Below, in pieces: positions 13,069-56,967 of a stretch of 64,000 nt of DNA; position 1 is the stretch's first letter, and each line of letters opens with the position of its first letter. Origin of the DNA: Pandoraea oxalativorans (GTDB lineage: Bacteria > Pseudomonadota > Gammaproteobacteria > Burkholderiales > Burkholderiaceae); assembly GCF_000972785.3 (NCBI RefSeq), contig NZ_CP011253.3, positions 1,798,001 to 1,862,000 of the forward strand, given 5' to 3'. The translations under genes were made by a program, and so were the position numbers. The notes beneath the pieces are model-generated. The model did not search any database, was not told the DNA's origin, and saw nothing but the letters and a program-made list of their open reading frames with translations.

Positions 13069-13438
13069 TGGTGGAGCCGGCGGGGATCGAACCCGCGTCC
13101 GCAAGCACTCTACGACCAGTTCTACATACTTAGTTCTGTCATTTGATTTAACTGTTTTGTCGCGGACGAACACGCTACGCAACAGCGATTCACTAAATTT
13201 TCGACCTTGGCGTCGTGACGCCACCAAGGCTTAACTGACGTATATGACCTCTGGCGGTATTGCTACCGGTCTTGCGACACTAGTCCGTCAGTGAACTAGG
13301 CAGAGGACGGCGGCCCTTAGGCTGCCAGTGCGAACGATTCGTCGTTTGCAGTTACGTTTTTCCCATTGATTAACGAGGTGACGGGTCCTCGGTATGCCCT
13401 GCATCGCTTTATACCCACGTCGAAACCATGTCGGCCCC
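13069..13438 (-). ncRNA. ssrA: Transfer-messenger RNA (tmRNA)
   Basis: 370 nt on the minus strand. The 5' end GGGGCCGACATGGTTTCGAC and the 3' end, with TTCGATCCCCGCCGGCTCC plus encoded CCA, form the tRNA-like half. The internal reading frame gives the tag ANDESFALAA followed by TAA (about 13346 down to 13314), which marks stalled products for ClpXP-type proteolysis. It rescues stalled ribosomes together with SmpB, whose gene is not in this window. A terminator follows at 12999-13024. Confidence 0.97.
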
Positions 13439-46147: not shown

Positions 46148-47245
46148 TCAGGCGGTGGCGAATGCGACCGGATGCTGCACCGTCAGGCGCAGTCCGACAC
46201 GCTCGCCGGTCTCGTGCGCCAGTTCGCCGTCGACGCGCGCGACCACTTCGATGCCGGACGCGAGACGCAGCGTGTACAACTGATCGGCCCCGCGAAATGC
46301 ACGACGCACAAGTATGGCTTCGAATGGACTGGCAGGGTCGTGGGCAATGTCGTCTGCGCGAAGCAGTACATCGACACTCACGGGATAGGTATCGCGGGCG
46401 GCGCTTCGGATCAGCTTGTCGGCAAGCGTGGGCGAGACGGGGATTTCCCCGATTTCAAGCGAGATGCCCCCGCCATCGGCGTTGCCGCGGAAGGTGCCGG
46501 GAATGAGCGCGCCACGCCCGATAAAGTCTGCGACGACGCGATTGGCCGGGGACCGCCAGAGCTCACGTGCCGCAGACCACTGCGCGATGGCACCCGCGTG
46601 CATGACGCCGATGCGGTCGGCCATCGCGAAGGCTTCGTGCTGATCGTGCGTGACGAGAATCGCCGTCGCGCCGCTGGCACGAATGATCTCCCGAACCTCC
46701 ACCGCCAGACGCTCGCGCAGGTCGAGATCGAGGTTTGAGAAAGGCTCGTCGAGGAGGAGCAACGCAGGCGCGGGCGCCAGCGCACGGGCAAGCGCGACGC
46801 GTTGTTGTTGCCCCCCGGACAGTTCATGCGGGTACTTCTTTAGCGTGCCCGCCAGACCGACCCGCTCGGCCAGCATCTCGACGCGAGCCTGGCGCTCCCC
46901 CCGCGCCATGCGGCTAATGCCAAAGCCGATGTTTTGCGCGACGTTCAGGTGCGGAAACAACGCGTAGTCCTGGAACACCACGCCGACATGACGCCGCTCA
47001 GGCGGCTCGCACAACTGTGCGTTGGCGACTTCGTGACCGTCAAGCACGATCCGCCCGCCTGCCAGCGGCTCGAAACCGCACACCGCACGAAGCACGGTCG
47101 TCTTCCCGCATCCCGATGGCCCCAGCAGGCAGCCGATCTCACCGCGGGCCAAGGACAGCGACAGATCGCGGACCGCAATATGCGTCTGGCCTGTGGTGTC
47201 GTAACTAACCGAGATGTGGTCGAGCAGCAGATAAGGCAGTGGCAT
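46148..47245 (-). CDS. ABC transporter ATP-binding protein, Fe(III)/spermidine class (FbpC-like)
   Basis: About 365 aa from ATG 47245; the frame is open to 47320, but the conserved domain starts just after 47245. Walker [10 protein letters not shown], signature [15 protein letters not shown] and Walker [13 protein letters not shown] are complete. A C-terminal TOBE-like regulatory region follows from about residue 240. Together with the divergent fused permease this is the FbpBC type used for ferric iron. No periplasmic binding protein gene is adjacent, so it must come from elsewhere. Divergent start, about 300 bp from the permease. Confidence 0.87.
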
Positions 47246-47372
47246 TGGTGTCGGAACGAACGTAGGTCGGGGGATTGGGTCGCGGAGGAAATCAGGTGCG
47301 CGAACGGCGGCTTTACGCAAAGTGCGGGCACTTTCCGCGAGTGGCCGCGTCAGAGTCGCAGTTGCGAATGCG

Positions 47373-47544: not shown

Positions 47545-49344
47545 ATGTCATCGACGCCCCAGTCACGCGCCGCCACCGATTCTGTTCCTCCCGACTTGTC
47601 TTCTGGCCGGTTGTCCGGAGATTCGCCTGCATTGGCCACTCCGGTCGCCAGCGCCGCTGTGGTGCAAGCACAGACGGCGTCGTCCGGCGGATCGTCGCAC
47701 CTCGGGGGGGCTAGACGAGGCTGGCGCTCTGCGAGTGTCTTCGGCTGGCGGCTCGTGGCTTGGATTCCCGCGCTGATCGTGCTTGTGCCAATGTTCGGCA
47801 TCGTGGCGGCGCTGGGGGCGGGCGATGCCGACACGCGCGCCGTGCTTGCCCATATGCTCGACACGGTGTTGCCTGAATACGCGCTCAACTCACTACGCAT
47901 CTCGCTGGCCGTGAGCGGTGGGGTGTTACTGATGGGCGTCGGTACGGCGTGGCTTGTGGTTCACTATGCATTTCCCGGCCGTCGGGTGCTTGAGTGGGCG
48001 CTGATTCTGCCGCTGGCCATGCCCGCCTATGTCACCGCCTACGCATATACCGATTTCCTTCAATTCGCCGGGCCGGTGCAAAGCGCGCTTCGTCGAGCGC
48101 TGGCCGTCGATCGCGTGACGTGGTTTCCCGAGATTCGCTCGTGGTACGGCGCGGCATGGGTCTTCGCGGGAGCGTTCTATCCGTACGTCTATCTGTTGGC
48201 GCGTACGGCGTTTGCGGAACACAGCCAGCGCTTCTTTGAGGCGGCACGTACGCTGGGGTGCACACCGTTGCAAGCGTTCTTTCGCGTGGCGTTGCCGCTA
48301 GCGCGTCCGGCGCTGGTGGCGGGCGTCGCACTCGTGCTCATGGAGACGCTCGCCGACTACGGCGCTGTGGCTTACTTCGGGGTGCCGACGTTCACGACGG
48401 GCATCTACCGCGCGTGGCTGTCGATGGGCGACCGCGTCGCGGCGGCTCAACTGTCGGCATGCCTGCTATTCGCCGTTTTGCTCTTGCTGACGGCAGAAGC
48501 GCGTAGCCGAACGCGACTGCGGTATTACGGGGCACCGGGGCGTGCGCCGACGACGTCACGCCGAACGGCGCTGCGCGGATGGCGTGGCGCTCTGGTTGCC
48601 GCTGGTTGCGCCCTGCCGTTGATCGTGGGCTTTGCACTGCCGGCGATCATCATGCTGCGCCTGGCTGTCTCGGAATTGGATCAGGTGCCTTGGCCGCGCT
48701 ATGGTGAGTGGGTCTACAACACCGTGCGGTTGGCGGCGGTGGCGGCGGTGGTCGCGTGCGCGTTCGCCATCGTGCTTGGCTACGCCCAGCGACTTGCGCC
48801 CGGACGTATCACACGTATTGCCGTACGCCTCGTAGGGGTAGGCTACGCGATCCCCGGGGCGGTTATTGCGCTGGGTATTCTCACTCCTGTGCTGCATCTC
48901 GACACATGGATGGGGAACGCGCTCGGGGCAAACGGGCTGGTATTGGCCGGCACGGGCGGCGTCTTGATCTACGCTTACCTTGTACGCTTCCTGCCTGCGG
49001 CGCTGCAAAGCGTCGATGCGGGATTCGCCCGTATCGCACCCAATCTCGACGCCAGTGCGCGCAGTCTCGGGGTGGGCGGATGGGCGATGCTGCGTCGCGT
49101 GCATTTGCCGCTGTTGCGAGGCAGCGTACTGACGGCAGCCCTGCTGGTGTTCGTCGACGTCATGAAGGAACTACCGGCCACGCTTGCGTTGCGGCCGTTC
49201 AACATGGATACGCTCGCCGTGGTCACCAGCCGTCTCGCCGCCGACGAACGGCTCGCCGAAGCCGCCGTCCCGGCGCTGACCCTGGTGCTGGTGGGGCTGC
49301 TACCGGTGTTGGTGCTGGCACGGGCCATTGCCCGGCGTGCCTGA
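47545..49344 (+). CDS. Fe(III)-type ABC transporter permease, fused two-domain (FbpB-like)
   Basis: 599 aa. A disordered, Ser/Ala-rich N-terminus (about 1-60) precedes 12 predicted helices in two permease modules. Each module carries an EAA-type loop (EAARTLGCTPLQAFFRVALPLARPA at about 232-256; DASARSLGVGGWAMLRRVHLPLLRG at about 508-532) for docking the ATPase. This is the FbpB/ThiP-like architecture. The start may lie further in, because the first 60 residues are not conserved in the family. It is divergent from the ATPase gene. Its solute-binding protein is missing here. Confidence 0.87.
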   Translation: MSSTPQSRAATDSVPPDLSSGRLSGDSPALATPVASAAVVQAQTASSGGSSHLGGARRGWRSASVFGWRLVAWIPALIVLVPMFGIVAALGAGDADTRAVLAHMLDTVLPEYALNSLRISLAVSGGVLLMGVGTAWLVVHYAFPGRRVLEWALILPLAMPAYVTAYAYTDFLQFAGPVQSALRRALAVDRVTWFPEIRSWYGAAWVFAGAFYPYVYLLARTAFAEHSQRFFEAARTLGCTPLQAFFRVALPLARPALVAGVALVLMETLADYGAVAYFGVPTFTTGIYRAWLSMGDRVAAAQLSACLLFAVLLLLTAEARSRTRLRYYGAPGRAPTTSRRTALRGWRGALVAAGCALPLIVGFALPAIIMLRLAVSELDQVPWPRYGEWVYNTVRLAAVAAVVACAFAIVLGYAQRLAPGRITRIAVRLVGVGYAIPGAVIALGILTPVLHLDTWMGNALGANGLVLAGTGGVLIYAYLVRFLPAALQSVDAGFARIAPNLDASARSLGVGGWAMLRRVHLPLLRGSVLTAALLVFVDVMKELPATLALRPFNMDTLAVVTSRLAADERLAEAAVPALTLVLVGLLPVLVLARAIARRA

Positions 49345-50000: not shown

Positions 50001-50975
50001 ATGGCGCTATGGCGGATCGATCTTGTCTCATTGCGGCTGTTTGTCGCTGTTTGTGAAGAGAGCAGCATTGCCCGGGCGGCCGAGCGTGAGTTCATCGCGC
50101 CCTCGGCCGTCAGCAAACGGATCAACGATCTCGAGTCGCTGGTCGGATCGGCGCTCCTCCAACGCCACAAGTGGGGGGTGCGGGCGACGCCGGCGGGCGA
50201 GGCGCTGCTGCATCACGCACGCAACGTACTGCGCAGTCTGGAGAAGATGCAGGGGGACCTGTCCGAGTACACAAGTGGCGTACGCGGCCACATCCGCATC
50301 TTCGCCAACGTTTCCTCGATTGTCGAAACATTACCCGACGAACTGGGCGCATTTCTGCGTCGCCACGAAGGCGTGAAGGTCGATCTCGAAGAACATACAA
50401 GCGCGCAAGTGGTGCGCGGTGTGGCGGACGGGGCGACCGACATCGGTATCTGCTGGGACGCGGTCGACACGCGCGAGGTCGAGGTCTTCCCGTATCGCCA
50501 CGATCAGATCGTCACGGTACTGCACCGGGATCATCCGCTCGCCTGCGCCGAGCAGCTCGCGTTCATCGAAACCCTCGACTTCGATCAGATCGGCGTGCAT
50601 CCGGATAGCGCGATGTACACCGTCTTCAGACGCCTTGCCGCCGAACAGGGCAAGACGGTCAAGTTCCGAATCCATGTTTCAACGTTCGAAGCGGTGTGTC
50701 GTATGGTGAGGGCCCAACTTGGCCTGGCGATCGCGCCGCGCGAGGCGGTTGGCATCTATTCGCAGGTGCCGGACGGAGAAGCGTTGCGTATCGTACCGCT
50801 GACAGATCCCTGGGCCGAGCGGCGGCTGGTTGTCTGCGTCCGCCGGTACGATGCGCTGCCCGTTGCGTCGCGCATGCTGGTCGACCACCTGTGCGCACGT
50901 AACGTAACGGGAACATCGGGGGGAACGCAGGGAACGGACGATTGCGGACGCGCGGACGGGGCGGAGAACGCCTGA
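50001..50975 (+). CDS. LysR-family regulator of the CoA-transferase/hydro-lyase locus
   Basis: About 324 aa from ATG 50001 (GGGAG site); the longer frame to 49878 adds unconserved residues. A winged HTH (LVSLRLFVAVCEESSIARAAE, then IAPSAVSKRINDLE) covers residues about 8-66, and a LysR substrate-binding domain runs from about 90 to 300. The HTH has the AbgR/CrgA-like style. It is the first gene of a same-strand group with the binding protein, hydro-lyase, CoA-transferase and racemase, so it is probably their regulator. The last 25 residues are low-complexity. Confidence 0.87.
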   Translation: MALWRIDLVSLRLFVAVCEESSIARAAEREFIAPSAVSKRINDLESLVGSALLQRHKWGVRATPAGEALLHHARNVLRSLEKMQGDLSEYTSGVRGHIRIFANVSSIVETLPDELGAFLRRHEGVKVDLEEHTSAQVVRGVADGATDIGICWDAVDTREVEVFPYRHDQIVTVLHRDHPLACAEQLAFIETLDFDQIGVHPDSAMYTVFRRLAAEQGKTVKFRIHVSTFEAVCRMVRAQLGLAIAPREAVGIYSQVPDGEALRIVPLTDPWAERRLVVCVRRYDALPVASRMLVDHLCARNVTGTSGGTQGTDDCGRADGAENA

Positions 50976-51198
50976 ACAGCCGCGCGACGACGACGTGCCC
51001 GACGGTGGAGGCAAGCCCTCGCCAGACCGTGCCAAAAAGGGATGTCGACGCGGCAAACATCGTGAACCGCGATGTCTGGCATGCCGAAACACCTCTTGCC
51101 GTCGCCTCTGGGCCGACGGATGCTCTGGGAGCCGATAGCGATTCCGGCCGACGAGCCGGGGCGCGCCGTATCTCGCATTGTGCGGGAGGAGACACGCG

Positions 51199-52275
51199 AT
51201 GACACATGCCGAAGCGCGCCGTGTGCGCGAAGCCGTGGGACGTCTGATTCTCGTTCTCACGCTGATGGCGTTGGCCCTCATAGCACTCAGCCTGAGCGGG
51301 GGAGCCTCCGCTGCACCGGCGCAACCCCTCGAAAAACCGAAGATCACCATCGCCGTGGGCGGAAAGCCCGGCCTCTACTACTTGCCCCTGACGATTGCCG
51401 AACAACTGGGCTACTTCAAGGACGAAGGCCTCGACGTCACGATCGACGACTTCGCCGGGGGGGCCAAAGCGCTACAGGCGGTCGTTGGCGGTAGCGCCGA
51501 TGTCGGCACGGGGGCGTTCGAACACACACTGCTCATGCAGACCAAGGGACTGACTTACCAGGCGTTCGTTGTGCTGGGGGCTGCGCCGCAACTGGTCCTT
51601 GGCGTCGTCAAGTCCAAGGCGGGCGAAGTGAAGTCCGTGAAGGATCTGAAAGGAATGCGGGTTGGCGTCAGCGCACCAGGATCGAGTACGCATATGTTGG
51701 TGAGTGTCGCCCTGACCAAAGCGGGTCTCAAACCCACCGACGTCTCGATAGTGGGAGTGGGCAGCAATGCGACGGTGGTCGCGGCGGCCCGCAACGGGCA
51801 GGTCGATGCCGTTTCCAACGTAGATCCGATGATGACGTTGTTGCAGGAGTCGGGCGACGTGAAGGTACTCATCGACACGCGTACGCAAGCGGGCACCCGC
51901 GCAATGTTCGGCGGTCCGATGCCCGCGGCGGTGATGTACGCGCCGCAGAGCTTCATCCAGAAGAACCCGCGTACGGTGCAGGCATTGGCCAACGCGATCG
52001 TACGTGCGGACAAATGGCTGCAACATGCATCGGCGAAAGAATTGCTCAAGACGGTGCCGGAACCCTATCTCCTCGGTGACAAGACGCTTTATCTGAAGGC
52101 GTTCGCGAATTGTCGTGAAGCCTTTTCCCAGGACGGCATGATGCTCGCCGATGGTCCGGCGACCGCATTGAAAGCGCTGGCGTCGTTCACGCCGGAGGTC
52201 AAGCCGTCGCAGATCCGGTTAGGCGACACCTGGACCAACACGTTCGCTACGCAGGCGAATCGCCAATATCCCTGA
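51199..52275 (+). CDS. NMT1/THI5-like (taurine/aliphatic-acid type) ABC substrate-binding protein, orphan
   Basis: About 358 aa from ATG 51199, preceded by GGAGGAG. A signal/anchor (about 15-40, ending ASAAPA) precedes a type II periplasmic binding fold: KITIAVGGKPGLYYLPLTIAEQLGYFKDEGLDV (about 48-80), AGGAKALQAVVGGSADVGTGAFEH and KDLKGMRVGVSAPGSSTHM. This family binds sulfonates, nitrate, pyrimidine precursors or aromatic and aliphatic acids. No ABC permease or ATPase is adjacent. Its place between the LysR gene and the hydro-lyase gene suggests it captures the substrate of the pathway. Confidence 0.85.
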   Translation: MTHAEARRVREAVGRLILVLTLMALALIALSLSGGASAAPAQPLEKPKITIAVGGKPGLYYLPLTIAEQLGYFKDEGLDVTIDDFAGGAKALQAVVGGSADVGTGAFEHTLLMQTKGLTYQAFVVLGAAPQLVLGVVKSKAGEVKSVKDLKGMRVGVSAPGSSTHMLVSVALTKAGLKPTDVSIVGVGSNATVVAAARNGQVDAVSNVDPMMTLLQESGDVKVLIDTRTQAGTRAMFGGPMPAAVMYAPQSFIQKNPRTVQALANAIVRADKWLQHASAKELLKTVPEPYLLGDKTLYLKAFANCREAFSQDGMMLADGPATALKALASFTPEVKPSQIRLGDTWTNTFATQANRQYP

Positions 52276-52403
52276 GCGCTATCCGACGAACGTGCGTTTG
52301 GACGAAATGACTTCACTTTTTCCACGCTGCCGCATGCTGCGTCGGCACGTAACTTGCGATCGAAATGGGTGAACCCATGCGGGAACATTCGAGGAGCGAT
52401 CTC

Positions 52404-54449
52404 ATGCAAGCCACCGTGCAACTGAACGGCCGTGTGCTGTGGTTGAGCGCCAGCGCCGAAGCCATCACCCGTCAATTGGCGGGGGAAACACTCACGCGAT
52501 CCGAAGCCGGCTCGCTGCGCGACCAGATTTCCACCGACGAAATGACACCGGCACGTGCTTGTCTGGCGTTTGACGAATCGCTTGGCGACTACGTCTACGT
52601 AGGGTTGCGATGCCATGACGATTCGAGCGATGCAGCAGGCGTGTTTCCTGTCACGCAGAAGGCGGTGCGCGAAGGCGGTTTTGCGTTGTCCGTGGCAGGC
52701 CTGCGACGTGGCAAGGGGTCGTCGCGTGAAGCCAGCCCGTTCGCGGAACGGTGCGCCGGCATCCGCATCGTGATCGCCGAGAGCTTCGAGCGCATTTATG
52801 CACAGAACTGTCAGAACCTCGGTCTGCTGATGTCGACCGATCTGACGTTGGCTGAGCGCTTGCAGGACGGCGAGACAATCCCCATCGAAGCGTTTCTCGA
52901 AGATTGCGATCCACTGGCCGAGGCCATCGTGCGTAGCGGTGGGCTATTCGGCTATACGCAGCGAAGGTTGTCCGGAGCTATCGTACCGCCGCAGCCTGCG
53001 CACGCCCCCGGCGCGATGACTTACGGAGAAAAGATCATTGCGCGAGCGATGGGGATCCCGCGTGTAAGGGCGGGGGACGCGGTGTTCGTGCCTGCAGACT
53101 GGCGCTTCTCTCATGAATACGTGACGCCGATGGCGGTGAGTTTCCTGCGCCACGCCTATGGCGACGAGATACCTGCGCTGCGCGACGTCGCTTCGGTACT
53201 GTGCTTTGAAGATCATCTGACGCACCTCGATGCCGTTTCCGCCGATGGCAGTCGGCCCCCGCAAATCGTGGACGCCGCGCGACGTCTCGGCACAGTCCAG
53301 CGCGAGTTTTGCGCCCGGCATGGGGTGCGTCTGCACGGCCGTGCCGCAGCCGGTGGTTCGGAGGGCATCTGCCACGCGTTGATGCTCGAACGCTATGCGC
53401 TGCCGGGGCAGGTAATCGTCGGCACCGATTCGCACACACCGCATTGCGGCGCCATCGGTGCGTTCGCCTTCGGTGTCGGGGCGACCGAAATGGCCAATGC
53501 GTGGCTTACCGGGGACGCACGACTCGCCGTGCCCGGTACGTGCCTCGTGCATCTGCGCTCGCGATTGCCTGCGGGCGTCGGCGCGAAAGATCTGGCTTTG
53601 CACCTGCTGCATCTGCCTTACATTCGCGACGGACGCGCCATCGGACAGATCGTAGAGTTCGCCGGTGAAGCCGTTGCGCACCTGTCGACCGACGAGCGCG
53701 CGACGCTCACCAACATGGTGGCCGAAATTGGCGGACTCACCGGACTGGTGGTGCCGGACGCGGAGACTGTCCGCTACCTGCGCGAGCGGCGTGGCATCGA
53801 TTTCACGCTTGATGCGTGGATGGAAAGTGATCCGCAAGCATCGTACGCCCATGTCATCGAGATCGATTGCGCGTCGCTTAGCGCGATGGTGGCGAGTCCC
53901 GGCGATCCGGGTAACGGTATTGCGCTGGCAGATTTGTCGACGGAGGTGGCCATCGATATCGCTTACGGCGGGTCGTGCACCGGCAGCAAGCGAGACGATT
54001 TACGGGCCTGTCATGACGTGCTTGCCTGGGGGTTGACGCAAGGGCATCGCGTTGCAGACGGCGTGCGCTTCTACCTGCAATATGGCAGCGAAGACGTGCG
54101 CGCATGGTGCGAGGCGCAAGGGTATGCGGACGTTTTCAAGGCGGCAGGTGTGACGATGCTCTCGCCCGGCTGCGGCGCATGCGTCAATGCCGGACCGGGC
54201 GTTTCCAAAACGTCGAACGAGGTGGTCATCAGCGCACAGAATCGCAATTTCCCCGGGCGTTCGGGCCCCGGGCAGATGTGGCTCGGCAGCCCGGCTACCG
54301 TGGCTGCGAGCGCTTTGGCGGGCTATATCGTGGGTTTCGATCAGTTACAACGCGATGGATTTGCGTCTCATCCGGTCTCTCACCCCGCCGCGCTTGCCGC
54401 GCCGGGCCGTGGGGACGGCGGGGCGTCGCACGCGGGCAGGGGAGGGTAG
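52404..54449 (+). CDS. Aconitase-family hydro-lyase, LeuD-type swivel fused in front of LeuC-type catalytic domains
   Basis: About 681 aa from ATG 52404 (GAGGAG site); ATG 52365 is a weaker alternative. The swivel domain comes first (AGLRRGKGSSREASPFAERCAG, about 96-117, with the substrate-binding serine loop). The catalytic part follows from about residue 210: GTDSHTPHCGAIGAFAFGVGATE (340-362), GGSCTGSKRDD with Cys525, and SPGCGACVNAG with Cys590 and Cys593. These are the three 4Fe-4S ligands. Such enzymes move or add water on 2-hydroxy-dicarboxylates, such as isopropylmalate, citramalate or dimethylmalate. Normally two proteins in bacteria, here one chain. It is 3 bp before a CoA-transferase gene. 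Confidence 0.87.
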   Translation: MQATVQLNGRVLWLSASAEAITRQLAGETLTRSEAGSLRDQISTDEMTPARACLAFDESLGDYVYVGLRCHDDSSDAAGVFPVTQKAVREGGFALSVAGLRRGKGSSREASPFAERCAGIRIVIAESFERIYAQNCQNLGLLMSTDLTLAERLQDGETIPIEAFLEDCDPLAEAIVRSGGLFGYTQRRLSGAIVPPQPAHAPGAMTYGEKIIARAMGIPRVRAGDAVFVPADWRFSHEYVTPMAVSFLRHAYGDEIPALRDVASVLCFEDHLTHLDAVSADGSRPPQIVDAARRLGTVQREFCARHGVRLHGRAAAGGSEGICHALMLERYALPGQVIVGTDSHTPHCGAIGAFAFGVGATEMANAWLTGDARLAVPGTCLVHLRSRLPAGVGAKDLALHLLHLPYIRDGRAIGQIVEFAGEAVAHLSTDERATLTNMVAEIGGLTGLVVPDAETVRYLRERRGIDFTLDAWMESDPQASYAHVIEIDCASLSAMVASPGDPGNGIALADLSTEVAIDIAYGGSCTGSKRDDLRACHDVLAWGLTQGHRVADGVRFYLQYGSEDVRAWCEAQGYADVFKAAGVTMLSPGCGACVNAGPGVSKTSNEVVISAQNRNFPGRSGPGQMWLGSPATVAASALAGYIVGFDQLQRDGFASHPVSHPAALAAPGRGDGGASHAGRGG

Positions 54450-54452
54450 CCG

Positions 54453-55745
54453 ATGCCGGATGTCACCTCTGCGGCACCGATGCCGTTACAAGGCATTCGT
54501 GTCGTGGAATTCTCACACATGGTCATGGGGCCGGCCTGCGGCATGGTGCTGGGCGACCTCGGGGCCGATGTCATCAAAGTGGAGCCGATAGGCGGCGACG
54601 CCACGCGTCATCTGCTGGGGACCGGTGCGGGATTTTTCCGCGCCTTCAATCGCAACAAGCGGAGTCTGGTCGTGGATGTCACGCGGCCCGAAGGGCGAGA
54701 GCTGATACTTCGACTCATCAGTACGTCGGATGTGGTGACGGAGAATTTCAAGCCCGGGCGGATGCGGCAAATCGGACTGGATTACGCCACGTTGTCACGG
54801 CTGAATCCGGCGCTGATCTATGTTTCGCTGAAGGGATTTCTGCCGGGGCCCTACGCTACGCGCACCGCGTTGGACGAGGTCGTGCAGATGATGGCGGGAC
54901 TTGCGTACATGACGGGACCGCCGGGCCAACCGTTGCGTGCGGGGACATCGGTCAACGACATCATGGGCGGTGTGTTCGGTGCACTGGCTGCGTTGGCTGC
55001 ACTCTACGAGCGAAAGACCACGGGGCGCGGGCAGGAAGTGCAGGGCGCGCTCTTCGAGAATTGCGTACTGCTTGCGGCGCAGCACATGCAACAGTACGCA
55101 GTGACGGGCGTGGCACCCGATCCGATGCCGGCGCGCGTGTCCGCGTGGGGTATTTACGACGTCTTTGCTGCGCGCGACGGCGTGCAGATCTTCCTCGCCG
55201 TCGTCAGCGATACGCAGTGGCGCATTTTCTGCGACCTCTTCGGCCGTCACGATCTGGCAGACGACCCGCGACTGTCCACGAACAATGACCGCGTGAGGGC
55301 ACGCGACTGGTTGCTCCCGTTGTTGCGTGAAATGATGCAAGGTTTCGACGCCAGCTATCTGGCTGCGGCGTTCGAGCGTCACGGATTGCCTTTTGCGCCG
55401 ATCGTGCAGCCTGCCGCGCTGTTCGACGACCCGCATTTGCTCGCCAGCGGCGGCTTGGGCGACCTGACGACGGAAACGGGTGAGCAAACGCAAGTGCCGT
55501 TGCTGCCGATCACGATGGCGGGGCAACGGTTGCCCGCACGCCGTGCGTTGCCGGTGGCGGGTGAGCACACAAGCGAAATTCTGAGAGATTTGGGATATCC
55601 CGATCACCAGATCGAGCGTCTGTTGAGCGAGGGGGTGGTGGCGGGACCGGAGGACGGATCGACGCCGGACGATGCATCCGGCGCGGGCGATACCGCCGGT
55701 CCCGTTTTTTGGAAGGACAGCCCAGGTCAACGCGGAACGCGCTGA
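54453..55745 (+). CDS. CaiB/BaiF class III CoA-transferase
   Basis: 430 aa. The family fold is recognisable from GIRVVEFSHMVMGPACGMVLGDLGADVIKVE (about 14-44) through LIYVSLKGFLPGPY (about 121-134). The catalytic aspartate is Asp169 in SVNDIMGG, the same number as in formyl-CoA transferase. It moves CoA between carboxylic acids, activating a substrate without ATP. Three bp after the hydro-lyase gene and 100 bp before a racemase of the same superfamily. The last 40 residues are disordered. The acid substrate is not known. Confidence 0.88.
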   Translation: MPDVTSAAPMPLQGIRVVEFSHMVMGPACGMVLGDLGADVIKVEPIGGDATRHLLGTGAGFFRAFNRNKRSLVVDVTRPEGRELILRLISTSDVVTENFKPGRMRQIGLDYATLSRLNPALIYVSLKGFLPGPYATRTALDEVVQMMAGLAYMTGPPGQPLRAGTSVNDIMGGVFGALAALAALYERKTTGRGQEVQGALFENCVLLAAQHMQQYAVTGVAPDPMPARVSAWGIYDVFAARDGVQIFLAVVSDTQWRIFCDLFGRHDLADDPRLSTNNDRVRARDWLLPLLREMMQGFDASYLAAAFERHGLPFAPIVQPAALFDDPHLLASGGLGDLTTETGEQTQVPLLPITMAGQRLPARRALPVAGEHTSEILRDLGYPDHQIERLLSEGVVAGPEDGSTPDDASGAGDTAGPVFWKDSPGQRGTR

Positions 55746-55848
55746 AATAAGAGTTTTCCGAAGGAGGTCGGCGTGTTGTCTGCTTGCGGGCACCGGGTAG
55801 GGCGCGGTACGGTATGAACGTCTACCGCCAACACGCCACCCCACCGTC

Positions 55849-56967
55849 ATGACCGAACCGCTCGACGCCGCCCACGCCCGCCAAACGTCTACTTCGTCTG
55901 CTTCGTCGTCTTCGTCACCAGTCCCGTCGCAGTCCCAACAGCTCGATAAGCCGCTATCGGGCGTGACAGTGCTCGACCTCACGCGTCTGCTGCCAGGTCC
56001 GCTCGCCGGGTTGCGTCTTGCGCAAATGGGGGCGCACGTCATCAAGATCGAAGACAAGGGCGCAGGTGACTACGCCCGGGAAATGATGCTGGCCGATGAC
56101 GAATCGCCCCCCAGCGCCTTCTGGCGACTGCTCAATCGCGGTAAGACTGTCGAACGTCTCGATCTCAAAAGCGACGCGGATCGGAAGACCTTCCTCGATC
56201 ACGTTGCCCACGCCGATGTACTGCTTGAGGGGTTTCGCCCGGGCGTGATGGCGCGTCTGGGCTTCGGCTACGAGGCGCTGGCACGTGTGCGGCCATCGCT
56301 GGTGATGGCGTCGATTTCCGGTTATGGCCAGCAAGGGTCGATGGCGCAAGCCGCCGGGCACGACATCAACTACATCGGGTACGCGGGCGTCCTCGATCAG
56401 CTTTGCGATGCGCAGGACGCGCCCATCGTCCCCAACTTTCAGATCGGCGACCTGTACGGCGGCGCTCAGGCTGCCGTTCAGGAAGTGCTGGCCGCGCTGG
56501 TCGCCGCACAGCGCATCGGGCACGGGCGATGGCTGGACATTTCGATGACGCATGAGGTGTTCCGCTCGAACGTCGTGCCGGCGGTGGCGATGCATCGTCG
56601 GGGGCACGTCTCGCGCGCCGGAAAGGATCTCCTCAACGGGGGTGTGCCCTGCTATCAGGTCTATCGCACGAAGGACGGCCGGTACATGGCGGTCGGTGCG
56701 CTCGAACTGAAGTTCTGGGAATCGCTGTGCGATGTGCTTGGCCGCAGCGACTGGAAGGCCCGGCATTGGACGCTTGGACAGGAGGTTGGGGGAGACGATG
56801 CACTCGCATTGCGTGCAGAGTTGGCGGTGGTGTTTGCTGCCGCAACGCAAGCCGACTGGGTCGCGCGTTTCGCCGATGCCGATTGCTGCGTGACGCCGGT
56901 GCTCCGGCTGGAGGAGGCGATGATGCATCCGCTGTTTGCGCAATTGCGCGACGCGCTGCTGCCATGA
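55849..56967 (+). CDS. Alpha-methylacyl-CoA racemase family protein
   Basis: 372 aa. The first 35 residues are Ser/Thr-rich and low-complexity. A class III CoA-transferase fold follows. The catalytic residues of bacterial MCR (His126, Asp156, Glu241) all align with a constant offset of 45: His171 in AGHDINYIGYAG, Asp201 in IGDLYGG and Glu286 in VGALELKFW. It should epimerise the alpha-methyl centre of 2-methylacyl-CoA esters rather than transfer CoA. Same strand as the transferase gene and 100 bp downstream, so probably part of the same pathway. It ends about 130 bp before a lipoprotein gene. Confidence 0.88.
   Translation: MTEPLDAAHARQTSTSSASSSSSPVPSQSQQLDKPLSGVTVLDLTRLLPGPLAGLRLAQMGAHVIKIEDKGAGDYAREMMLADDESPPSAFWRLLNRGKTVERLDLKSDADRKTFLDHVAHADVLLEGFRPGVMARLGFGYEALARVRPSLVMASISGYGQQGSMAQAAGHDINYIGYAGVLDQLCDAQDAPIVPNFQIGDLYGGAQAAVQEVLAALVAAQRIGHGRWLDISMTHEVFRSNVVPAVAMHRRGHVSRAGKDLLNGGVPCYQVYRTKDGRYMAVGALELKFWESLCDVLGRSDWKARHWTLGQEVGGDDALALRAELAVVFAAATQADWVARFADADCCVTPVLRLEEAMMHPLFAQLRDALLP

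Follow-up and report, generated by a model that had tools for sequence, protein, structure and literature searches.

A putative 2-substituted malate catabolic locus conserved in Pandoraea and related to a lyase-transferase module of Burkholderiaceae

The five-gene locus of Pandoraea oxalativorans described here probably represents, in the form found in Pandoraea, a route for the catabolism of 2-substituted malates (HOOC-C(OH)(R)-CH2-COOH), a system that recurs in Burkholderiaceae and is seemingly undescribed. We present here a comparative analysis of this locus, which occupies positions 50001 to 56967 of a 64,000-nucleotide stretch (the window; G000:C1:1798001-1862000) of the 6.5-Mb genome. 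Its five open reading frames (ORFs), all on the + strand, encode a LysR-type regulator, an NMT1/SsuA-type periplasmic binding protein (NMT1), a one-chain aconitase-family hydro-lyase/isomerase (ACN), a class III CoA-transferase (CaiBA), and an AMACR-like protein (CaiBB). An earlier note on this DNA had named five genes of these families on one strand, and coordinates and Pfam matches agree for all five. What is observed is the five genes, how they are conserved, and that related transferases are linked or fused to a lyase; from these observations we infer all the reactions as well as the substrate, the CoA donor, and the Pandoraea lyase.

In the proposed pathway, LysR would sense the substrate or an intermediate. 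ACN would hydrate an R-maleate, or isomerise a 3-R-malate to a 2-R-malate in the manner of isopropylmalate (IPM) isomerase and 3-benzylmalate dehydratase. CaiBA would then use a CoA donor, for instance succinyl-CoA, to activate the carboxylate adjoining the CH2 group, and an enzyme of the hydroxymethylglutaryl-CoA (HMG-CoA) lyase type would cleave the CoA ester to acetyl-CoA and a 2-oxo acid, R-CO-COOH. In most Pandoraea this lyase would be encoded away from the locus, for example by the HMG-CoA lyase gene at C1:420546 in P. oxalativorans. The AMACR-like protein may either act on the CoA ester, inverting an alpha carbon, or simply lie next to the pathway genes. From the pathway logic of the earlier note, comparative genomics supports a hydro-lyase, CoA activation, and cleavage of the HMG-CoA lyase type, and does not extend that support to epimerisation or to C5/C6 substrates.

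The evidence for cleavage comes from relatives in which ACN, LysR (41 to 45% identity), the CoA-transferase (58 to 61%), and a gene of the HMG-CoA lyase subfamily (HMGL) stand together, as in Burkholderia (L010), Paraburkholderia (L012), Ramlibacter (L056), and a Burkholderiales metagenome-assembled genome (L030). All four lyases scanned from such loci score above the cut-off of the hydroxymethylglutaryl-CoA lyase subfamily model. Among 349 genomes of the family, the module HMGL was found in 94 (E ≤1e-110) and ACN in 111 (E ≤1e-150); in a broader sample from the order, only 5 of 250 genomes, P. oxalativorans included, have ACN at that limit (E ≤1e-150). Twenty HMGL loci, chosen by us and not at random from the 94 genomes, were opened; 20 plus 9 further loci and sets of 40 and 24 genomes were chosen likewise. 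The ORF caller, based on codon usage, overlooked genes; ORFs were forced from tblastn matches. A CaiBA relative (58 to 63% identity) adjoins HMGL in all 20 loci, many of which also hold a gene for a major facilitator superfamily (MFS) or TctC-type transporter, and the window LysR (50001-50975, +; Pfam HTH_1 and LysR_substrate; longer ORF from 49878) is 40 to 47% identical to the LysR of 19 of these 20 Burkholderiaceae loci (among printed rows). CaiBA itself (54453-55745, +; Pfam CoA_transf_3) matches PF02515 with 372 bits and has Asp at position 169, within VNDIMGG. The motifs ALDEVVQMM and SVNDIMGG that it carries are common to HMGL-linked and HMGL-fused transferases and are not in the two other P. 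oxalativorans CaiB proteins compared.

Gene order and fusion extend this linkage. Paraburkholderia panacisoli (L012) has the order LysR-HMGL-CaiB-HPPD-MFS-ACN, where HPPD is 4-hydroxyphenylpyruvate dioxygenase (seen in this locus by tblastn alone), and the annotated plasmid pPT365 of Paraburkholderia terrae has LysR, HMGL, CaiB, hppD, MFS, and an aconitase family gene, in that order. In a different class, the Roseomonas mucosa plasmid p1-AD3 encodes a natural HMGL::CaiB fusion of 751 residues (L179:6749-9004), whose gene overlaps the start of ACN by 4 bases and whose transferase half carries both ALDEVVQMM and SVNDIMGG. ACN relatives were gathered from species genomes (best 80 loci); the family alignment and tree hold 116 rows, or 111 different sequences, with some rows from the same strain or identical. 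In this tree, built by a quick method and with linkage labels assigned by identity thresholds, nine of the 116 rows are linked to close homologs of both CaiBA and HMGL, and further linkage is seen for L161, with a 52% lyase, and for three rows with more distant CaiB/HMGL. The rows linked to CaiBA and HMGL occupy separated places in both Burkholderiales clades. Across the 317 family genomes outside Pandoraea, 55 have both ACN and HMGL, 25 ACN only, 37 HMGL only, and 200 neither (Fisher p 2.6e-18, a statistic that ignores phylogeny and genome size).

Within Pandoraea, window-type ACN (66 to 100% identity) is present in 29 of 32 genomes, and the order NMT1-ACN-CaiBA is kept in 26 of the 29 loci with ACN, which argues against a chance arrangement. 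In the deep-branching G023 and G030 loci, LysR directly precedes ACN, with NMT1 absent from between; the contig of G025 extends only about 0.4 kb upstream of the ACN match and bears no NMT1 match. The ACNs of these three genomes are together sister to all other Pandoraea ACNs in the gene tree, in which L007 stands for G025, the contig being the same. Either NMT1 joined the locus after the G023 and G030 lineages split off, or it was lost in them. The earlier note had proposed co-occurrence in other Burkholderiales as a check; the five genes were seen together in Pandoraea only. Two genomes, G011 and G020, retain the order thyA-ABC-LysR-NMT1-CaiBA-CaiBB-dinB, with ACN reduced in each to a 62-residue remnant (L191:7958-8143 and L192:11854-12021). 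One remnant is an internal and the other a C-terminal part of the gene, so there were probably two separate losses. G018 (1.2 Mb) gave no ACN match, and the ACN reading frame of G027 is split in two (L127:9674-11757) by a frameshift or an assembly error. A second ACN (51 to 56%) occurs in 31 of the 32 genomes, with the order LysR-ACN-MFS in L001, L039, L041, L043, and L118 and with other neighbors in L165 and L166; P. oxalativorans itself carries such a paralogous LysR-ACN-MFS locus, without CaiB.

Several findings weigh against assigning the locus to 2-substituted malate catabolism, beside the limit on the co-occurrence statistic given above. To our knowledge, no activity has been measured for any member of the ACN family. 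The nearest curated transferase model for CaiBA is succinate--glutarate CoA-transferase, at 274.9 bits against a cut-off of 750. An ACN gene (at least 48%) stands in only 3 of the 20 opened lyase loci (L131, L132, and L133, among printed rows), so the HMGL-CaiB pair usually stands without ACN. The module HMGL was found in only two of the 32 Pandoraea genomes, G029, where it lies on a contig other than that of the window-type ACN, and G011, where ACN is lost; hence, no Pandoraea locus itself shows the lyase. Both genomes that lost ACN retain CaiBA, and the persistence of neighbors beside ACN remnants means that the full set is not a strict requirement. Members of the ACN family are also found where CaiB and HMGL are lacking, in rows of Acidobacteriota/Holophagaceae and, with TctC and RraA, in Comamonadaceae, so it is not a family of single function. 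Part of this pattern would suit a loose neighborhood, in which ACN serves one pathway, as in the LysR-ACN-MFS loci, and CaiBA-CaiBB another: ACN went separately in G011 and G020 while the remainder was kept, NMT1 is missing from the G023 and G030 loci, the paralogous ACN locus of P. oxalativorans has no CaiB, and ACN is absent from most opened HMGL-CaiB loci. Yet LysR-ACN-CaiBA has been retained across most of the genus, and ACN recurs with CaiBA and HMGL in separated lineages, the overlap with the fusion-protein gene included. We regard a loose neighborhood as unlikely.

The 2-substituted malate pathway calls for a lyase, and the earlier note had seen no gene of the CitE or HMG-CoA lyase type; the five locus genes indeed include neither. 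The best match to the module HMGL in P. oxalativorans, at 40%, is the canonical HMG-CoA lyase at C1:420546. This genome also offers two other candidates, namely C1:862092, which is HMGL-like and adjoins another CaiB, and the RipC-like CitE C1:2823023. A PF03328 (CitE) search of P. oxalativorans gave two genes, the RipC-like one and C1:5249425, the neighbors of which resemble, by inspection, a homoprotocatechuate cluster. CitE was rejected as the linked lyase, as the RipC-like gene follows another CaiB, upstream of which a CCS-type transporter is encoded, and the second CitE has the neighbors just described. The locus of the former (L121:5647-10327), in which LysR, the CCS-type transporter, CaiB, and the RipC-like CitE are close together, is a candidate (S)-citramalate or malate-type locus. 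The search for a lyase elsewhere succeeded in relatives, where HMGL adjoins or is fused to related transferases, and did not in any Pandoraea locus.

ACN (52404-54449, +; Pfam Aconitase and Aconitase_C; ORF from 52365) retains the residues named by the earlier note, whose three cluster cysteines, like its Asp169 in CaiBA and complete His/Asp/Glu set in CaiBB, were confirmed. The cysteines (C538, C603, and C606, numbered from 52365) are invariant in 19 aligned rows, and all 116 rows of the family alignment have Cys at each of these positions. The GSSRE loop of the swivel domain is intact (GKGSSRE), with Arg in 116 of 116 rows and each of the two Ser in 114 of 116. Small- and large-subunit domains are joined in a single chain with the swivel domain first, which is the order of AcnB. 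When solved folds are ranked by E-value against a structure model (mean pLDDT, 83), large subunits of homoaconitase and IPM isomerase come first, covering the second part of the protein; the highest TM-score by query length (0.66) is that of aconitase B (1l5j). The nearest protein cluster (97% identity) is named Pandoraea sputorum/Pandoraea, and one-chain, swivel-first proteins of the ACN type bear the database names 3-isopropylmalate or 2,3-dimethylmalate dehydratase. No listed NCBIfam model was above its cut-off for ACN (best 25 of 26 shown), and the same holds for the other four proteins, with listings limited to the best 25 models; function assignment via NCBIfam was dropped on this ground.

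Relatives of ACN stand in varied surroundings. In L044, L046, L050, and other Acidobacteriota, the ACN-type gene lies in a conserved neighborhood of inositol-monophosphatase (Pfam) and, by inspection, ferredoxin-, RecO-, and GlyQ-like genes, and these copies possibly have a housekeeping role. Three Comamonadaceae plasmids have the order ACN-TctC-RraA (L181:8965-12441, L182:8992-12530, and L185:8977-12478); some proteins of the RraA family are pyruvate aldolases. A PrpB/isocitrate-lyase-type protein (299 bits, below the cut-off of 354) is encoded beside MFS and ACN in a Trinickia locus. Such PrpB-type and RraA neighbors suggest that other cleavage routes may exist within the ACN family. In Streptomyces KN37, a relative with 41% identity lies between genes of the LeuA family and the isocitrate/isopropylmalate dehydrogenase family in a nonribosomal peptide synthetase/polyketide synthase cluster (L183:7704-11972). 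By analogy, this cassette looks like an alkylmalate-isomerase context resembling amino-acid or acyl homologation; HphCD, the 3-benzylmalate dehydratase of such chemistry, is an isomerase according to the accessible part of its description (PMC12961565). The aconitase fold and the housekeeping-looking context of the Acidobacteriota copies would agree with a further aconitase for tricarboxylate or citrate-type metabolism, but the specific linkage to a CoA-transferase and HMGL and the LeuA-ACN-dehydrogenase cassette in Streptomyces make that role for ACN very improbable.

CaiBB (55849-56967, +; Pfam CoA_transf_3) has H171, D201, and E286 aligned with solved racemases (MCR/FAR), and this set is kept in all 26 rows checked, the window's own included. 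The gene follows CaiBA after 103 bases, compared with 3 bases between ACN and CaiBA and larger gaps upstream of ACN. By coordinates, CaiBB is close behind ACN-CaiBA in 28 of the 29 ACN-bearing Pandoraea genomes; in G028 the rest of the locus is present, and CaiBB was unmatched anywhere at E ≤1e-90. Homologs occur in 139 of the 349 family genomes, 109 of them among the 317 outside Pandoraea. Beside CaiBB in nine opened non-Pandoraea loci, the window LysR, NMT1, ACN, and CaiBA were unmatched (HMGL was not queried), and in the four for which genes were printed, the neighbors appear housekeeping-like by inspection. With the family so widespread away from the window's pathway neighbors, the AMACR-like protein was rejected as a proven pathway enzyme, and the epimerisation step of the earlier note lacks independent support. 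CaiBB may have been recruited in Pandoraea or may be an ordinary AMACR merely located there. A route for 3-methylmalate or 2,3-dimethylmalate, in which the AMACR-like protein would epimerise an alpha-methyl CoA ester that is then split into propionyl-CoA and a 2-oxo acid, accords with the full catalytic set and with the position of CaiBB, which holds in deep-branching Pandoraea also. It is quite unlikely, however, given the CaiBB family outside the genus, the G028 locus without CaiBB, and G011 and G020, which retain CaiBB without an intact ACN.

Clues to the product of the 2-substituted malate pathway come from genes near the lyase-transferase pair. HPPD lies beside the pair in L012, L129, L130, L132, L135, L170, and P. 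terrae pPT365, which include 4 of the 20 opened lyase loci; the L012 protein matches TIGR01263 with 391 bits (cut-off, 277). In G341, G359, and G426, the HPPD of the lyase locus is a second hpd, and the other copy, of 58% identity, is found away from it; G264 has only the locus copy, and the one further match in G323 is at 44%. A gene for a fused indolepyruvate:ferredoxin oxidoreductase (IOR; PRK13029, with 1940 bits for the L171 protein) was found no more than 10 kb from an ACN gene in 10 of the 34 ACN-bearing genomes searched, where crude uniform placement would predict about 0.4; in 12 of the 21 genomes covered by both searches, another IOR copy is at most 3 kb away from an hpd gene. HPPD and IOR both consume arylpyruvates. 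The ACNs linked to IOR fall in the other deep clade of the ACN tree (L161, L162, L163, and L171 placed, and six assigned by 51 to 55% identity only), as do those of the Variovorax IOR loci L049 and L074, so the IOR clue is indirect for the window. These neighbors point to aromatic 2-oxo acids in those relatives, and cleavage of a 2-(arylmethyl)malyl-CoA by HMGL would give exactly an arylpyruvate and acetyl-CoA.

A tentative extension, which we think possible yet less likely than not, is that HMGL-CaiB-ACN serves the catabolism of plant 2-benzylmalates (2-benzylmalate, eucomate [2-(4-hydroxybenzyl)malate], and piscidate-like acids). CoA activation and cleavage of the arylmalate would yield acetyl-CoA and an arylpyruvate, which a dedicated second HPPD or a dedicated indolepyruvate-type oxidoreductase would consume; ACN would be a benzylmalate isomerase working opposite to the Hph homologation pathway, and Pandoraea a lyase-less branch borrowing its lyase from elsewhere in the genome. 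We know of no bacterial genes for plant 2-benzylmalate catabolism. Among the literature matches listed (30 of 52 in one search and 12 of 12 in another), mostly from non-subscription journals and partly accessible, no report was found of bacterial 2-alkyl- or 2-arylmalate catabolism or its genes, and none was found that linked Pandoraea with itaconate or combined the gene names of the module; related routes in the literature concern itaconate, mesaconate, methylsuccinate, and (S)-citramalate. In the accessible parts of the sources, 2R-benzylmalate derivatives occur in an orchid (PMC6385127), and eucomic acid is 2-hydroxy-2-(4-hydroxybenzyl)butanedioic acid (PMC3213623). Hydroxymethylglutarate (meglutol) was rejected as a substrate of the whole set on a chemical argument, its OH being beta to both carboxylates and the acid not an aconitase-type substrate.

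A C5 route, from citraconate or another methylmaleate through (R)-citramalate and (R)-citramalyl-CoA to acetyl-CoA and pyruvate by an HMGL-type enzyme, would be a special case of 2-substituted malate catabolism with R = methyl and the same chemistry, and its odds overlap with those of the general pathway. The R-citramalyl-CoA lyase of Chloroflexus is an HMGL-family enzyme, which counts for this route. So does the behavior of P. putida with PA0878-PA0883, which, in the accessible part of the report, did not metabolise (R)-citramalate or citraconate, so that cluster leaves the route uncovered (PMC9875883). Pyruvate, however, needs neither HPPD nor an arylpyruvate oxidoreductase, both of which stand in loci of several relatives, and methyl is singled out by none of the data; we hold the C5 route to be rather doubtful. 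The C5/C6 substrates of the earlier note accordingly have no specific support, possible as they are, beside the HPPD and arylpyruvate-oxidoreductase neighbors of some relatives.

NMT1 (51199-52275, +; Pfam NMT1; ORF from 51178) has, by inspection, a signal-peptide-like N terminus. No cognate permease adjoins the gene at the locus, and its earlier description as an orphan stands. A divergent ATP-binding cassette (ABC) ATPase gene (46151-47320, -) and a double permease gene (47545-49341, +) lie beside the locus in opened Pandoraea loci. These genes are phosphonate/molybdate-like (a PhnT2/PotA-like ATPase and a phosphonate/molybdate-type permease, all matches below cut-offs), and no binding-protein gene of their own was recognised between them and the locus. 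NMT1 was ruled out as their partner, as the ABC genes persist in L123 and L124 without NMT1. In G028 (P. terrae-like), a partial thyA match (90%) lies beside a second, divergent thyA (65%; L126:11874-13328). The window also contains a transfer-messenger RNA (tmRNA) gene at 13069-13438 on the - strand, with the tag ANDESFALAA.

If the 2-substituted malate assignment is true, recurrent genes named only "hydroxymethylglutaryl-CoA lyase," "CaiB/BaiF CoA-transferase," and "aconitase family protein" gain a pathway, and one-chain, swivel-first aconitase-family proteins gain a role. It would also show how bacteria open 2-substituted malates, of which orchid 2R-benzylmalate esters and eucomic acid are plant examples. 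The Roseomonas HMGL::CaiB fusion makes both activities assayable in one step.

Several known systems resemble the locus in part. The itaconate cluster Ict-Ich-Ccl (RipABC) likewise combines activation by a CoA-transferase with C-C cleavage of a branched dicarboxylyl-CoA, but it hydrates after activation to the CoA ester and uses a CitE-like lyase; in the system proposed here the free acid would be the substrate of an Fe-S hydro-lyase, and the lyase linked in relatives resembles HMGL. Neither a MaoC-type hydratase (Ich) nor a CitE-type lyase (Ccl) is among the five locus genes, and the only RipC/Ccl-like gene found (177.7 bits, below the cut-off of 375) is 0.97 Mb away, behind another CaiB. The (R)-citramalate route of Chloroflexus uses succinyl-CoA:D-citramalate CoA-transferase and R-citramalyl-CoA lyase. 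A CaiB-type transferase and an HMGL-family lyase act there on a 2-alkylmalate; compared by description, it differs in being part of a CO2-fixation cycle and in having no aconitase-family partner known to us. DmdAB, the 2,3-dimethylmalate dehydratase of nicotinate fermentation, is also an aconitase-family dehydratase of an alkylmalate, and some Pandoraea proteins bear its name in databases; it has two separate subunits and works with a CoA-independent lyase. Aconitase B (1l5j) shares the fold over 722 columns and the swivel-first order, whereas ACN is shorter (694 versus 862 residues), lacks the HEAT-like domain, and is linked to CaiB and HMGL. In the cyanobacterial cassette HphA-HphCD-HphB, as described in the accessible part of PMC12961565, an isomerase interconverts 2- and 3-substituted malates derived from arylpyruvates, and in the LeuA-ACN-dehydrogenase cassette of Streptomyces KN37 the isomerase gene is the 41% relative of ACN. 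Both cassettes (HphCD likened by description) are biosynthetic, with a synthase and a dehydrogenase in place of a transferase and a lyase; a LeuA-type synthase and an IPM-dehydrogenase-type dehydrogenase, both annotated beside the Streptomyces relative, are not among the five locus genes. The HMGL-CaiB(-HPPD)-MFS-ACN module of Burkholderiaceae differs from the window locus by its HMGL gene and shares with it LysR (40 to 47%), CaiBA (58 to 63%), and the two transferase motifs.

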